Of a stretch of DNA of 64,000 nt, positions 14,449 to 24,893 are shown piece by piece. The DNA is from Owenia fusiformis. Its lineage: Eukaryota; Annelida; Polychaeta; Sabellida; Oweniidae. Location: contig CAIIXF020000001.1 of assembly GCA_903813345.2 (NCBI GenBank), positions 17,567,915 to 17,631,914 of the forward strand, in the 5' to 3' direction. Numbering within the stretch: the first letter of the stretch is position 1; every line of letters starts with the position of its first letter. The notes beneath the pieces were generated by a model. It was not told where the DNA came from and made no database searches. It saw nothing but the letters and a program-made list of their open reading frames with translations. Both the position numbers and the translations under genes were made by a program.

Positions 14449-17400
14449 TTAAATAAAGTTGGCAGTGATAAGTATCAATGAAACTAGCAATGAGACTGAT
14501 GTAGATATTGAAGCTGCGCCATCTGTAGATTCTTGAGTAGTGTTTTCAGCACTACCACTTGCATGATCGTGATCATGATCGTGGTCGTGAGAATTTCCTT
14601 CGTGATGATCGTGAGAATGGCTGTCGCATGTCTTATGAAACCAAGTGTGGTGCAAGTGTTGCAAATGACCATTGTCCTTTAGGGATTGTATGGCTTCATT
14701 GAAATGTAACACGTGTCGAGAGTTTTTGGGAAAGGCAAGAGCATATCGTCCGAAATTTCCACCTGGGAACTCTATCTCTGTCAGATCGCAAGGTTCCTGA
14801 TGGGCGTAGTATTCAGCGGAAGGAGATTCTACAATAAATGCATAATTGCCTTGTCTGACTTTACGCAGACCGTCAGCAGTAGAACTGACGTAAGCATCAT
14901 CGGAATTCAAACGCATCCATCTGGCTGCTTCCTGCACAGTTCTATCATCACTCGATTCTATGTATTTGTCGACACTGCCACCTCGGATAGAACCGTACTT
15001 AATACCGTCTTCTGCTTGGTTGACGAGGTCTGCAAATGTCTTGATATCTATTTCACCGTTGGATGGTTTCTTTATGAGAATTGCAAGGCCGAATTCCATG
15101 AATGGATCAGAAAAAACAACAGCATTTCCACGCATTGGTGTTACTGTCAGATCTGCAATAGCGATATCAGCATCCTGAAACAATCACATTTAATTATATT
15201 TAGTTAGTAGATCACTGGTTTATTTTATCTAGCTAGCTTGTATTTGCCAATGCAACTATCGGCTGCCGGCTACCAGGTTAACCCACCATTAGCCGGCACC
15301 CGAAAGTTGCAATCGCGAATACAAGCCCCGGGATACTAGCTAAATAATCAAATCAAAATTGGTCGTGTTGAGCTTTCACTTCGGAACTTGCCGATATTCT
15401 TTAAAGGCCCACTTTGCGTATTTTCAATGTTTTTGGGCAAAATAAAGACTTACATTTGAATTTCATAGTATATCCAATGTATTGATAAGAACCTGATCTT
15501 TCATTTGACACCAACAGCAGCTCAAACAAACCACATCAAAGCTTACAATAAATTATCAAAATATATTTTCTATCTGTCAATATTTAGTTAGTAGATCACT
15601 GGTTTATTTTATCTAGTAAGCTTGTATTTGCGAATGCAACTATCGGCAGTCGGCTACCAGGTTAACCTACTATTAGCCGGCATCCGAAAGCTGCATTCGC
15701 GAATACAAAACCTGGGGATACTAGCAAAGTAATCAAATTAAAATTGGTCGTGTGGAGCTTTCACTTCGGAACTTGCCGATTGTCTTTAAAGGCCCACTTT
15801 GCGTATTTTCAATGTTTTTTGGCAAAATAAAGACTTACATTTGAATTTCATAGTATATCCAATGTATTGATAAGAACCTGATCTTTCATTTGACACCAAC
15901 AACAGCTCAAACGAACCACATCAAAGCTTACAATAAAAATTATCAAAATATATTTTCGATCTGTCAAGCTTTATGTATCAAGTTTTTATCAATGTCATTG
16001 AAAGATGGCGAAGTTTTTTGTTAACATGATTTTTATAGAAGTGTCGCCATCTTTTAAATCAACAGCAATATAAAACAAGCACTTTACTTAACATGTGCAT
16101 GCACTTCTAATGATGAAATTCTTTATGCTATGTGAGTTATTTTTTAGAAAATAAAACTCTGTGTCATATTTGAGCGAGTGTGTGTGTAAAATGTTTCAAG
16201 GGTTATTTTTTTCCTTTATTCTTCTAAATTAAGTATAGATGGCCTTTAAGTTAATAATATCACAAAACAAGAAGATGTCAGCCTCCTAATCTTTTATTAT
16301 TGTTATAAAGGTAAACTAAATATATTAAACAGCACAGACATCGTCAGGAATGTTCCTTTAACAAAAATGCCCATATTGTAGTCAAACAGACTGTCAAACG
16401 GGTGTTTAAATTCCGATGTGTGCTGCAAAATCTTATCTTTTTTTATGATCATAGAGCCTTACCTCATTGACGAGCTGCCCTATCAAACCATTCCAGCGGT
16501 CATTCTCTAGGTATCCATACTTGCCATCAGGAGACTCAGTGATGCTGTACCTAAATTCACCCATGACGTGTTGCAGCTCTTTGATTAAGTCAATGACGTA
16601 TCCGGACTCCTTATTAGACACAACTGAGTAAAAGGGTTGACTCTATAAAAAATTTAATATAAACTACATGTGTATCAATTCGATTTCAATATTTAAGGAT
16701 TTAAATGAAAAAGATACGAAATCACTAAAACAGCATATCTTCAGTGGAACTTGCAAGGGTAAAATTGGCAAAGCATCAATTTCAACATCAAGAATCAAGT
16801 TGTCACCTTGACAACCATTCAACGAATGACCTTGGGTGAGTTATTGGTTGTATAATACATTGCAAATTATATTAAATACTGTGTTCGGATTCGTGGCTAG
16901 AACTCTGGTTAAACTGCAGGTTAAACTGAGCCCAACAAGCCCTTGAAGTCTAACATGTAAGAAAAGAGGCTGAACAAGTGCATTGGGCTAAATACGGCAA
17001 ACATTTTAGAAGAAGAAGCTGAATTTCACTCAGAAACCTATAGAAATGTATCTATTATCATTTGAATCATGATAGTTTGAATTCAAATTAAATTGTTAAT
17101 CGAGGAGGAAACTGAATTCTTGAATCACACCTGCATGATTCACTCACATCTATTGTAGTTATCCTGAAGTTTTCATCCGAATGGTCGTGACCCTCGTGAC
17201 CTTCATCATGATCTCCGTGATCATGCGCATGATCGTGATCGCCATGGTCACCGTGGTCTTGGGCTGAAATGCACATATGACGCTTTAATGGAATATTATT
17301 TAACCAAAGTTCAATACTCAAATAATCTATTTCAGACATGATCAAAATAAAGTGAATTCAAAATCAAGGAAAAAGTAGACACAAATGTAATGCCCGAACA

Positions 17401-20400
17401 CGAAAAGGCACACTAATTGAAGCCCTACAAAATTTTTGTGACAAAATTTTACTTGGCACATCTGAGGATTCCCCCAAGATTCGCCAGTTTTAGGTATGTT
17501 AGTCTGAGGTTCCGTACATACTACTCAGACTTGGAAAACAATAGTAAATGTTCTGTTCACATTATTCGTAATGGGAAACCAGAAACAGACAAGTCGTAAT
17601 TACTACCAGAAACTTAAAATCGAAACATGTTTTCAAACGGTGCCACGACCAGTGCACCTAGCCACCCACAATTTTTTTTTGTATTTGTATAAGGCGTACA
17701 AGACCTTCTGTTTAAATTAACCATGGAATAGCACCTGTGGAATAATAATATGGCGTTTCGCCAAATGTGGTCGCAAGTGTTGATTTTCAGATTAATTTTC
17801 AGATTAATTTCCCGCCCGAAAATTACAATATGAAAGTAAGGAATTTTAGAAATGTCATTTTTATTGGAAACACGTTTAGTACGTTTTTATTCCAATTGGC
17901 AATAAAATATTTTTGAGACACATGCCACTCAGTTAGTATGCCATGTCTCAACTTTGTTTTGGTAAATGTCTCATGTTTCTTATTCCAGATCTTCTCGTAG
18001 TTTGATTCTGTATTCTATGTATATAAAGGCATAAATCATTTGACAGTCCAACGTACATCGACCAGAAAGAAAGATGAGCAACTCCCCGGGCACTTACAAT
18101 ATGTTTCTTTAACATGTAACACTCGTATTTGGTCTTATTTCATGTATTTAAGTATGAGATAGCAGTGAACACAATATGCCATCTTTTTATCCGTTGCTTC
18201 TAACATTCCATGATGAACCCTGAATTTAAACTGTCGAGTTATTTGGATATATTTGAACCACCCTCTTTTAGTCGAGAATGTATGAAATGCCTGGTGGATC
18301 AAGATAAACAAACCAGCAAGTTTCAGAAAATGAACTTCAGGATTTTGAGGTATTTCTTCATCAGGTTAAAATTAGGTAATTTGAGATACTCAGGAGTGGT
18401 ATTCAGTCCTTCTATAAATCTTATGTGTCAATTTTTAACGCAATATTATGTGTGTTTATTTGGAGAATTCCAAATTGGGATTCTATGAGAAATAGCATGT
18501 GTTGCCCTACTTATTACATGAGCATGCGTCTTTAAGTCACCACCACAAGTGGTGTTAACATAAACATTGATTGCTTCAATGGAAAAAATAGATTATTCTG
18601 ACACGAATTACAAACAAATATTGAGATCAAGGTATTGTTTAACAACTGCGCATTCTCAAAACAGAAGTGGTGACATATTGTTAGTCTCTTTTTATGTGAA
18701 TGGTGTTTGTCGGTCCGACGGTTCGTGTTCGGTCGTCGGCATCTGTACAAATTCTTACAACTTCCAATAAATTAACAGGTCTATGTAATGTTGATAATGC
18801 CCTTCCATGGGGAATCACAAGACCCATGGTCCTCAAATGTTCACGTTATTGAGTCGTTGAGAGGTCTGGTTACGTTCTTGCTGAGTATGCCGTGGTTTCA
18901 TGTTAATTTGTTCCGTCCCCCCATACACGCCGAGAAAACCCTTTAGCTGTGTCAGGCTTTTGTTTCTGTATTTAGTTCATATACAGATTTGTATGCTGCT
19001 TCTGATGATTACAAGAACTTTATTTGTTTGCTGACTGACTGTTATGCATTATGATATGAATTGTGTACTTGCTCCTAGACACAACATATCGGTTTGGCCT
19101 TGTAGAAGGATTCGCTAGGAACATCTGAACTGACAGAGATCTAGTGAGACCGTGAAGGAGCATATAAAAAACAAACATCTTGATGAACCATGTCATCTCA
19201 GTTCTTCCCAGGCTTGAGATGCCATGACATACATGAAATGAGCTACAGTTGGCGATCTTAGAGCATCATTGGCTAAAGATTACATCCATGAGCTGCTATG
19301 AAAGCAGTGAAGGACCAACCTTAATTGAAGGATGATCTGAGAACCCTGATTTTAAGATTTTTTGGATCTCCCATCTCAGTTTATACTACATTGGATTAGG
19401 GTCATAAAACTTTTGAGATTGTATCAGCTGGGTTTATATCTAATGATAGTGACAACATAATACAATACATTCTAATGTAGAGACATTACTAGCCATGAAT
19501 ATATGATATTCACACATAGCTAGTCAAGGGCATGTGTGTCCAATTCCAGCCAATCAGAACAAGCTATTTCTCGTAACTGCATTCCTAGAAATTCAGAAAA
19601 AATCCAGGGGGTTTCACTTTGACAAATTAAACTTGTTCCAAAATCACTGAAAAATGCTAAAAATTGTGGAAACTACATGATTTTGAAAGAATTTTTGGCT
19701 AGAGGGAGAGGCACCCGAACCTTTCTCACTTATCGACAGGTGACTTTTCCCGTCAGATTCACTAGGATCAAACATCTTATTTCAATCAGAGCATTCTGAG
19801 TGAAACAAAATTATGTGTTGAGTTTCAGAATGAGAAACAGTGAAAATGTCCGACAAGACACTGACTAGACTTTCAGTGTGCATTCGTTATTCAAACTGAC
19901 GGTCCCGTCAGATGAAATAATGATTACCCAATTAGTATTTGAATAGCTTTTATTGCCCTCTGCTGAGAAGTCTGATAGCCACAATCTACAGAGTGAGGGT
20001 CGACTTTTGACTCAACTATCAATCTTATATGTTTACCTAATCTTCAAATGACCATCATTCATAATATCAATAGGCTATTCTGGACCTTATTGCTTTAATA
20101 GCTTTATTGCATGATAACCATCTCAAACTAACACCAAATGACAGCATGTGCGCTGGAAACCTCATAAAACAGATTGTATGACATTAAATCACCGATAGGT
20201 GGAATATTTTCAAGCGAATACACACTCAGTTGACCCCTAAAAGCTGGTACATTGAGGAAATCAACCAAATGACCCTTATGAACTCCGTTAATGGGCAAAT
20301 TAGCACTTTAGCAGATTCACATTTGTTACGCTAACGGAGAGACGTGTAATTTAGATCCTCATTATGGTTCGGAATGTCACATTTATCAATTTTTGATGAC

Positions 20401-22065
20401 AGTGATAGCGATAATTTAGACTTTTGACTCTTTTACGATATTTACAAAACATGGTCAATCTCTGCTGCGTCCTCTGGAATAAATGAAAAAATGTAAAAGA
20501 CACCCTGCACCAAGCTCCATATTAATTAAAATAAACTGGAACTTGCTTGCCTCCATGAAAAGAATAGTTGTAGATTATTCTGACGCGACTTACAAACAAT
20601 TGGTAGCGAAATAGGAACAACTGCGCATTCTCAAAACATATTCAACAAACATATTTGAAAAAAGCTTGCCATGTGTTAACGTACATGGAACGATTAGTTC
20701 CAATGATAAATGATAACTCAACATACATTTCCCCAAAACTGTTGTGTTTATTCAATGGCCTAGAAACTTGTTTACACTGTACGTACGTTACGGCTTTGGA
20801 ACGTCTATTAACCAATCCCTCTCTTGTTGTTTATCATGTATAGTCTAGTATTAGTCCTAGAAAGAGACCCAGAAAGACATTAAATTTTCTGATTTCTTCT
20901 CTGGCTAAAATTAATGAGGTTGTCACCTAATCTTAAACAATTGATGTTTAATTGCTTTGATTTTGAAATTCAAGCCTACTGAGAAGTGAGAAGTGTGTGT
21001 AGAAGCTTTCAATCTCTAAGCATGATTCTCAACCCCAGGTTCTCAACTCTAAATTTCCATTCTAACCATCTTATAAGAAGTTGAGGATTTTTAATCTGAG
21101 ATTTGATGACATAGTGCTTAGAATCATTGGGTATTATTATCATTATCTGAAATGAGTTCAAATAAAGAAAATCTGGGAGCTTGTTCTAATAGGGATGGGG
21201 GGGGGGGGGGGGGTTCTTGCAAGATACTTCAAACGCGCCGATTATACAGTTTGGGCCAAAACATATTTATATTGAGGCTATCAGCATTGTGTCGCTTATC
21301 TTCAGCATCTGGTTAATTTATTGATGTTACGTGTTTTATAACATTTTGTCATTACATTCTCACCATTATACCACAAAGTCCCCTAAGCTTTTGTTAATTC
21401 AAGATATGTTTTCAATATTTCGGAAATGTTGATATGAAATAAGATGACTGCTTTCAAAACTGAGTGACATTACAAGTCGCAACACAACCCCTTTGTTCAC
21501 TAGCAAAATGCATCCCTATTGTGCATTGTTATCACTGGTCAGTATCACTGAAAAGTGAAGACGGTCGTTGCCTGGAATTTGAGAATCAACATCAACCAAT
21601 GCATGTGCATCATACGTTTCGTTTTTTGAACGTTGAATTATATATCCAGTGGTATATATCAATACAAGAATGTAGGCCTATCATATAGATTGGTTTAAGG
21701 GAGTCGTTCTCAAGTCGAATTTTTGTTTTGAATTTGAAGACCTAATTTTGCCAAAAATAAAACATGTTTCCTGGTTATGCTGACCCATTCTTCTCGACTC
21801 ACTCACTCATCTTCCCATTAAAATGCCACTCGTCGGCTTCGTCTGGATTAATAAATAAAGAAATGTTTTTGTAAACTTTCGATCTAGTTTTATCCGGGCA
21901 TCATAGTTATTCCACTGTCTGGTTCCCCCCACGTCCGACACAAATCTCCGTCGAGTTATCTGAGCTATCTTGACAGAATAATTCAATGTTTAATTAATTT
22001 AAAAAATCTAATTACTTACCGCATACAAGGCCGATCAAAAGGAGAAGGAGGGCGCAGATATTCAT
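14449..22065 (-). CDS. Pore-less ionotropic-glutamate-receptor-like ligand-binding protein, His-rich, secreted/GPI-type
   Basis: Exons in coding order: 22020-22065, 17148-17263, 16463-16642, 14449-15174. Phases agree and give 355 aa. Residues 1-16 are a signal peptide (ATG chosen because MNICALLLLLIGLVC follows). Residues 17-46 are a His/Asp/Gly tract with ten His. Residues 48-297 match an iGluR ligand-binding domain: S1 from FRITTID through GYVIDLIKEL and ADLTVTPMR, S2 from IKYGSIRGGS to the closing Cys. The ligand residues equivalent to GluA2 Thr480, Arg485, Ser654 and Glu705 are Thr124, Arg129, Ser181 and Glu230. The GluA2 Cys718-Cys773 pair is Cys243-Cys297. Residues 300-318 are a second His/Asp tract, and 341-355 a hydrophobic end without a cytoplasmic tail, which suggests a GPI anchor. 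S1 joins S2 inside the last exon with no M1-M3 pore helices. Expected role is extracellular amino-acid (perhaps also metal) binding; this is inference. Confidence 0.85.
15197..15968. repeat. Tandem direct duplication, two units of about 385 bp
   Basis: Unit 1 (about 15197-15579) and unit 2 (about 15581-15968) are nearly identical, both starting TTTAGTTAGTAGATCACTGG and both containing AATCAAAATTGG- or AATTAAAATTGG-type words and TTTGACACCAACA. The duplication lies in the last intron of the ligand-binding-protein gene, just upstream of the acceptor at 15175. Immediately after it, 15998-16058 forms a small hairpin around GATGGCGA. Confidence 0.8.
17264..22019. other. Large first intron of the ligand-binding-protein gene
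   Basis: 4.7-kb intron between the signal-peptide exon and the His-rich exon. No further exon could be read in it. Two related segments (about 18583-18665 and 20570-20640, sharing TAGATTATTCTGAC and CAACTGCGCATTCTCAAAACA) are an unclassified repeat. A G-tract of about 19 bases lies near 21197-21213. Nothing else was recognised. Confidence 0.45.
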
Positions 22066-24329: not shown

Positions 24330-24893
24330 TTTAACCAAAGCTACCATACTGATGATAAATAAAGCTACCATTCTGATGATAACTAAAGCTATCATACTGA
24401 TGATGACCAAAGCTACTGATGATTACCAAAACGACTATTCTGATGATAACCAAAGCTACTATACTGATGATATTCAAAACTATATAATGATGATAACCAA
24501 AGGTACCATACTGATGATGACCAAAGCTACTGATGATTACCAAAACGACTATTCTGATGATAACCAAAGCTACTATACTGATGATATTCAAAACTATATA
24601 TTGATGATAACCAAAGCTACCATACTGATGATAACCAAAGCTACTATACTGATGATATTCAAAACTATATACTGATGATAACCAAAGCTACCATACTGAT
24701 GATAACCAAAGCTACCATTCTGATGATAACCAAAGCTACCATTCTGATGATAACCAAAGCTACTATACTGATGATATTCAAAACTATATACTGATGATAA
24801 CTGATGATAACCAAAGCTACAATTCTGATGATAACCAAAGCTATCATACCAATGATAACCAAAGCTACCATTCTAAGACTACTATAATACTGA
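24330..24893. repeat. Minisatellite based on GATGATAACCAAAGCTAC
   Basis: About 25 imperfect units of 18-24 bp built on CTGATGATAACCAAAGCTAC, with a variant containing GATATTCAAAACTATATA. A higher-order unit of about 120 bp (24404-24525 repeated at 24526-24645) is visible. Unit length is often a multiple of three, so several frames stay open. These are not genes. Confidence 0.92.

Follow-up and report, generated by a model that had tools for sequence, protein, structure and literature searches.

A channel-less ionotropic glutamate receptor ligand-binding domain encoded in the genome of the annelid Owenia fusiformis

Gene structure and domain content

We analyzed a 64,000-nucleotide stretch of the Owenia fusiformis genome (contig C1:17567915-17631914, here called the window), the minus strand of which holds a four-exon gene for a protein of 355 residues. 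The evidence supports the identification of this protein as the ligand-binding domain of an ionotropic glutamate receptor (iGluR) without its channel, with conserved contacts to the alpha-carboxyl and alpha-amino groups of a ligand and a conserved disulfide pair. An earlier note, made from the letters of this DNA, had proposed a gene of four exons without giving the strand, and the gene holds up: each of the three introns has GT-AG ends, the 355 codons read through without a stop, and the translation is identical, over all 355 residues, to a deposited O. fusiformis protein. Intron phases are 1, 0, and 0, in order, beginning with a GT donor in phase 1 after exon 1 (Table 1). RNA-seq is reported to support 99.29% of the transcripts in a published Owenia annotation (PMC9977687), which may or may not be the source of the window gene model; its assembly measures 505.8 Mb, compared with 498 Mb for the genome searched here. 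Intron 3 contains a 385-bp unit repeated twice in tandem with 93% matches (window 15196-15967).

Pfam covers aa 47-294 with two families above their cut-offs, PF10613 (E = 1.3e-29) and PF00497 (E = 1.6e-15), all other families falling below theirs. The channel family PF00060 is not among the matches. The bilobed S1-S2 ligand-binding domain (the clamshell) spans aa 47-298, and AlphaFold returns a good clamshell model. The best PDB match lies far beyond chance (E = 2.1e-37) and is 1ftk, a GluA2 chain with S1 and S2 joined; the best 60 of 383 PDB matches are all AMPA, kainate, delta, or fly KaiR1D chains. We take 1ftk and 1gr2 to be designed S1S2 constructs, a design that is a standard tool. The window protein resembles them in its short S1-S2 linker, its gap-free alignment to the 1ftk join, and its top PDB match, which bears out the earlier description of a counterpart to such constructs; it differs in being natural, with 355 residues that include a leader, His-rich flanks, and a tail.

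S1 runs directly into S2 within exon 4, as had been claimed, and several results agree that no channel lies between them. Channel-bearing relatives match on both sides of the join, among them P0004 (15171-15064 and 15039-14611, with 24 nt between); the M1-pore-M3 cassette comprises 110-120 residues in the three channel-bearing Owenia loci measured. A home-made channel profile from seven sequences gave no convincing match in the window (best E = 0.34), and the 31 PF00060 exon matches in the genome all fall outside the 64 kb. After S2 there is no M4 helix or cytoplasmic tail, the sole hydrophobic stretch found there being aa 337-355 at the protein end. The amino-terminal domain, which is missing in some iGluR relatives, is not seen either: PF01094 is absent from the Pfam matches up to E = 1, and only about 46 residues precede the clamshell.

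In iGluRs, a conserved arginine binds the alpha-carboxyl group of the ligand. The window protein has the iGluR pairing of Arg485 with an acidic residue at 705 (GluA2 positions as defined in PMC6307864), with R129 and E230 at these sites. Both residues, together with Cys243 and Cys297, stand in the translation exactly where the earlier note had placed them.

Table 1. Features of the channel-less gene, in window coordinates
Feature	Position	Strand	Remarks
Exon 1	22020..22065	-	Start codon and most of the signal-peptide-like leader, aa 1-15 plus base 1 of codon 16
Exon 2	17148..17263	-	N-terminal His-rich stretch and first clamshell beta strand
Exon 3	16463..16642	-	First part of S1, aa 55-114; introns on either side phase 0
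Intron 3	15175..16462	-	Phase 0
Exon 4	14449..15174	-	Remaining S1, linker, S2, C-terminal His-rich stretch, hydrophobic tail, stop
S1 end, aa 115-151 (to Pro151)	15064..15174	-	Arg129 at 15132-15130
Linker, aa 152-158, seven residues	15043..15063	-	In place of M1-pore-M3; from 1ftk alignment
S2, aa 159-298	14623..15042	-	Val182 at 14973-14971; Glu230 at 14829-14827
S2 disulfide pair	Cys243 14790-14788; Cys297 14628-14626	-	From sequence and 1ftk alignment
C-terminal His-rich stretch, about aa 299-318	14563..14622	-	Also conserved in P0002
GPI-signal-like tail, aa 332-355	14452..14523	-	Home-made rule with controls

Other channel-less loci in the genome

Genome searches gave 24 matches with the window protein and 23 with a third copy (L046) as the query. 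At least three further Owenia loci carry S1 into S2 without a channel, namely, the gene for P0002 at C3:17.10 Mb, L046 at C1:14.94 Mb, and the divergent L047 at C1:1.37 Mb; the count is a lower bound, with matches at C7:27.45, C2:34.97, and C11:33.17 Mb lying outside the flank inspection. Most other matches to the window protein are channel-bearing or fall at loci shown to be so.

The P0002 gene, on a different chromosome from the window gene, repeats its plan of four exons with intron phases 1, 0, and 0 and the same S1-S2 join. Introns 2 and 3 occupy identical sites in the two genes, and intron 1 has equal phase, two codons apart in the leader alignment (P0002 read by eye). The proteins are identical at 129 of 258 residues; only 9 of 38 fourfold sites agree, and agreement at codon positions 1, 2, and 3 is 57.8, 69.8, and 35.7%. 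Synonymous sites are saturated and the protein is conserved, which indicates an old duplication and a protein kept by selection.

These results bear on the idea that the gene is a pseudogene, a fragment of a normal receptor, or an assembly artefact, the last of which the earlier note had listed as fatal to its claim. What speaks for it is that a receptor without a channel is unexpected, and nothing else. The paralogue with matching exon plan and join on another chromosome, the saturated synonymous sites beside a conserved protein, the deposited gene model, and the failure to find a channel exon within 64 kb all argue against it. We therefore reject pseudogene and artefact, giving the idea next to no weight; the artefact is ruled out by the three other loci of this genome that lack the channel.

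Descent from channel-bearing receptors

The window protein is like AMPA, kainate, and delta iGluRs (fly KaiR1D, rat GluA2, human GluD1) in clamshell sequence and fold, backbone-contact residues, the S2 cysteine pair, and intron sites. It differs from them in lacking the amino-terminal domain, M1-pore-M3, and M4, and in having His-rich flanks and a hydrophobic tail that replaces the cytoplasmic tail. Sequence, intron sites, tree, and fold support its descent from a channel-bearing animal iGluR of this type. The phase 0 site of intron 3 is common to 9 of the 10 channel-bearing Owenia loci examined and that of intron 2 to 7 of 8, the exception at both being L011, which resembles an NMDA-type receptor; the comparison covers loci where the motif was found, leaving out L006-L008, L014, L016-L018, and L020 at both sites and L019 at intron 2. 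L009 and L010 each hold the S1 end, the complete cassette, and the larger part of S2 within one stop-free exon, so a single in-frame deletion could yield the join seen in the window gene, and this may have been the actual route of cassette loss. Additional introns interrupt S2 in L001-L003, and an ancestor of that kind would have required intron losses too.

Both trees place the channel-less proteins among animal iGluRs, with bacterial rows apart at 100/99 (four rows) and 100/100 (two rows). The first tree does not resolve the channel-less groups. In the second, which is without P0008, P0016, P0042, and P0125 (all present in the first), the His-rich Owenia pair groups with mite proteins and P0003/P0005 at 90/83, and L046 (90/85) and L047 (92/58) each pair with channel-bearing receptors of Owenia. 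The channel-less label needs four changes on either tree, only one of which is forced by starred branches. One-clade tests gave approximately unbiased test values (p-AU) of 0.118 for 10 channel-less rows and 0.185 for 8 of them on the first tree and 0.243 (four Owenia rows) and 0.247 (three of those) on the second. The groupings of the second tree hint at several channel losses, with a single origin not rejected by the one-clade tests.

Channel-less clamshells are usual in bacteria, and the PF00497 match recalls the bacterial family-3 solute-binding proteins, which share a related domain and have no channel. Both points speak for a bacterial gene acquired by transfer. Set against this are three spliceosomal introns, two of them at animal iGluR sites, the animal receptor chains that fill the best PDB matches, and the separation of the bacterial rows in both trees, and on these grounds we reject transfer as hardly credible.

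A separate observation concerns the receptor loci L006-L008 (C11:32.6673-32.6685 Mb, minus strand), where four exons running from M3 to the start of S2 stand in tandem, about 310-350 bp apart. They differ at the 653-655 specificity site, and one match contains two internal TAA stops. Such an array suggests a set of iGluR exons that are used alternatively.

Relatives in other organisms

The search for similar channel-less proteins elsewhere, which the earlier note had recommended, was successful in mites, where proteins carry PF10613 and PF00497 without PF00060. S1 is joined to S2 in 10 of 18 proteins from a profile search (P0001, P0003, P0005-P0010, P0012, and P0013; P0019 and P0020 were outside this inspection). 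Of the others, P0011 is a fragment, P0014-P0016 have PF00060, and P0017 and P0018 stop at or soon after M3. The named mite proteins among the 10 are P0006 (D. pteronyssinus), P0007 (D. farinae), and P0008 (Sarcoptes), labeled "putative glutamate receptor" or "glutamate receptor kainate-like" and 32-36% identical to the window protein. They share its domain pair, its S1-S2 join, and a C-terminal part rich in His and Asn, with a hydrophobic C-terminal stretch in P0006 and P0008; they differ in a long low-complexity tail, Thr655, and Phe732. P0009 and P0012 group with the mite rows at 100/99. P0012 has 21 extra residues precisely at the intron 3 site, and P0009 starts at that site with an intron-like translation (both by eye), which makes it likely that mites, too, have an intron there. 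These counts are no census of other annelids or molluscs: bacterial solute-binding proteins made up 120 of the 165 matches listed for the third protein search, and the second was probably swamped by His-rich words, to judge from the absence of P0002 among its listed matches.

We found no description of a channel-less or soluble iGluR-type protein among the best-ranked papers of literature searches that extended to Owenia glutamate receptors and mite iGluRs and excluded subscription papers and bioRxiv. Channel-less forms are likewise unmentioned in the available passages of papers on mite receptors and oyster iGluRs. A large survey discarded any iGluR sequence that matched the SYTANLAAF motif at fewer than four residues (PMC6307864); such a filter would hide the whole channel-less class. 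Channel-bearing Owenia receptors in which the corresponding motif is strongly altered, e.g., SYASSLVTI or TYTGSLVNC, lie at C7:21.516 Mb (L016), C6:13.09/13.10 Mb (L017, L049), and C11:24.678 Mb (L048). Among metagenome sequences, P0022 (383 residues) has a leader, S1, M1-M3, and S2, without an amino-terminal domain or a clear M4; judged by this layout, it is a minimal receptor of eukaryote type.

Leader, His-rich flanks, and tail

The protein begins with a hydrophobic leader of about 16 residues (hydropathy 1.71 over aa 1-19) and ends in a hydrophobic stretch (aa 337-355, hydropathy 2.01) preceded by a Ser/Thr-rich spacer. Both hydrophobic termini that the earlier note had read as a signal peptide and a glycosylphosphatidylinositol (GPI) signal are present, as a putative leader and a candidate anchor signal. 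GPI-anchored proteins end in a signal made of a small omega site, a spacer, and a hydrophobic, uncharged terminus. By a simple home-made rule the tail counts as such a signal, and so do 98 of 5,000 shuffled tails and 5 of 201 open reading frames of the window. Of 138 proteins compared, 2 pass, the window protein and P0009. The protein is probably extracellular, and GPI anchoring is plausible. In the other copies, L046 has a hydrophobic tail that passes the rule, and L047 has a hydrophobic end that fails it.

His-rich stretches, absent from the earlier account, lie on both sides of the clamshell, with 10 His in aa 17-46 (17261-17172) and 9 His in aa 298-320. They flank the clamshell on both sides in P0001 and in the paralogue P0002 alike, and they probably bind Zn2+ or Cu2+. 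It could be argued that these flanks are the working part, in Zn/Cu capture, transport, or mineral or tube chemistry, and that the clamshell serves as their carrier or senses complexes of metal and amino acid. The flanks of P0001 and P0002 fit such a protein, and a mineral-binding relative of the acetylcholine-binding protein (AChBP), ACCBP, exists (PMC3423370). However, neither L046 nor L047 has a His-rich stretch after the clamshell, and a mere carrier would not need the conserved ligand-contact residues. We think a metal-centered protein unlikely.

Binding pocket and predicted ligand

In GluA2 numbering, the pocket reads Y450, D478, T480, R485, G653, S654, V655, E705, and Y732; Asp478 is seen in fly KaiR1D too. 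An eLife 2018 survey treated Gly653 with a non-polar residue at 655 as marking a candidate glycine binder (PMC6307864). In a 2025 paper (PMC12226733), the combination of T655 and Y732 goes with glutamate, whereas S653, a hydrophobic residue at 655, and F732 go with glycine or D-serine. Under these published specificity rules, Gly653 and Val655 make the pocket lean toward a glycine-type ligand (glycine, D-/L-serine, or alanine), likelier than glutamate. The conserved backbone-contact residues fit the earlier proposal of an extracellular amino-acid binder, but glutamate is not the ligand that Gly653 and Val655 predict. The P0002 pocket has P478, Y480, L655, and F732, and that of L046 (read by eye) has T480, G653, T655, D705, and Y732, closer to the glutamate set.

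Other features of the window

Elsewhere in the window lie exons of a DEG/ENaC-type sodium channel (PF00858; 26548-32081, plus strand) and of an angiotensin-converting-enzyme-like peptidase (PF01401; 37096-45909, minus strand), the final exon of which is hydrophobic at its end. A reverse-transcriptase-like element (PF00078; 41324-41863) sits between the peptidase exons. A tandem array with a 24-base unit and longer periods of 57, 71, and 114 occupies 24332-24874, and an Rfam scan of the 64-kb window gave no matches.

Proposed function

The data support the clamshell, its backbone contacts, the missing channel, selection on the protein, and its descent. Beyond this, we infer that the protein is exported and anchored, takes a glycine-type ligand, binds metal, and serves as an extracellular binder. 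Of the ancestral receptor, the ligand-binding clamshell remains; the amino-terminal domain, the M1-pore-M3 cassette, and M4 are lost. Exported as one clamshell with the iGluR disulfide, the product would either stay at the surface of the cell on a GPI-type anchor or be released. Outside the cell it may close on a small extracellular amino acid of glycine type and, in the manner of AChBP, buffer, scavenge, or present a transmitter-like amino acid, with the His-rich flanks and Zn2+ or Cu2+ perhaps coupling capture or clustering to metal. On balance, and with moderate confidence, we lean toward this reading of a channel-less iGluR descendant acting as an exported amino-acid binder.

Several observations weigh against it. 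The pocket is mixed, with Tyr732 fitting glutamate and Val655 fitting glycine, and Tyr480 of P0002 could block the ligand, so that some family members may bind none. GPI anchoring does not extend to all relatives, even the closest: P0002 ends in its His-rich stretch without a hydrophobic tail. Only P0009 of the five mite or mite-like proteins passes the GPI rule (none of P0006-P0008 does). In L046, the last exon lacks a His-rich stretch, and the pocket has Thr655 and Asp705 (by eye), so neither metal binding nor glycine preference is general. Finally, the AlphaFold model mainly restates the sequence match, since iGluR clamshells are well known to AlphaFold.

Within receptors, ligand-binding domains dimerize back-to-back. 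An anchored clamshell might pair in this way with the clamshells of full-length Owenia iGluRs and, as a surface-bound partner or dominant-negative, tune or block their gating, with or without ligand. The close match to AMPA/kainate/delta domains and the many channel-bearing receptors in the genome (the 31 PF00060 exon matches) are consistent with such a partner. However, the sequence singles out no receptor partner, and the paralogue P0002 has no anchor; we consider pairing improbable.

Two known proteins suggest how an exported binder might work. SmGBP of Schistosoma is a truncated metabotropic glutamate receptor that binds glutamate at the surface of males (PMC3206071). Like the window protein, it is a receptor ligand-binding domain without membrane machinery; unlike it, SmGBP is a class C G-protein-coupled receptor Venus flytrap of ~55 kDa with no channel ancestry. 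As the reported work placed SmGBP at the body surface and did not see it in nerves (PMC3206071), and as the window protein has the fold and size of solute-binding proteins (PF00497), one could picture a protein that binds nutrients or odours at the body surface or in the gut, comparable to bacterial periplasmic binding proteins or insect odorant-binding proteins, with no role in nervous signaling. No transporter partner is known for it, and we rate this lower than pairing or a metal-centered role.

The other parallel for an exported amino-acid binder is AChBP, the water-soluble ligand-binding domain of a nicotinic-type receptor, found in gastropods and in the annelid Capitella (PMC3423370). 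Both are ligand-binding domains of neurotransmitter-gated channels without the channel, extracellular in AChBP and probably so in the window protein. Unlike the window protein, AChBP is a pentamer of the Cys-loop receptor superfamily, and its role is debated but studied. Pfam finds no Cys-loop receptor-type ligand-binding domain in the window protein, so the likeness is one of way of working only.

Implications

iGluRs are usually regarded as channels. A natural clamshell without its channel, retained by selection and present in several copies in one genome, would mean that animals have put the binding module to use by itself, in parallel with AChBP in the Cys-loop family. Drug and structural research has made a tool of AChBP, and natural S1S2 proteins may serve likewise. 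It is possible, if doubtful at present, that annelids and mites share a protostome family, ancient and so far overlooked, of iGluR clamshells that are secreted or GPI-anchored. Such a counterpart of AChBP would consist of metal-linked binders that take up glycine-type ligands outside cells and shape non-synaptic amino-acid signaling.

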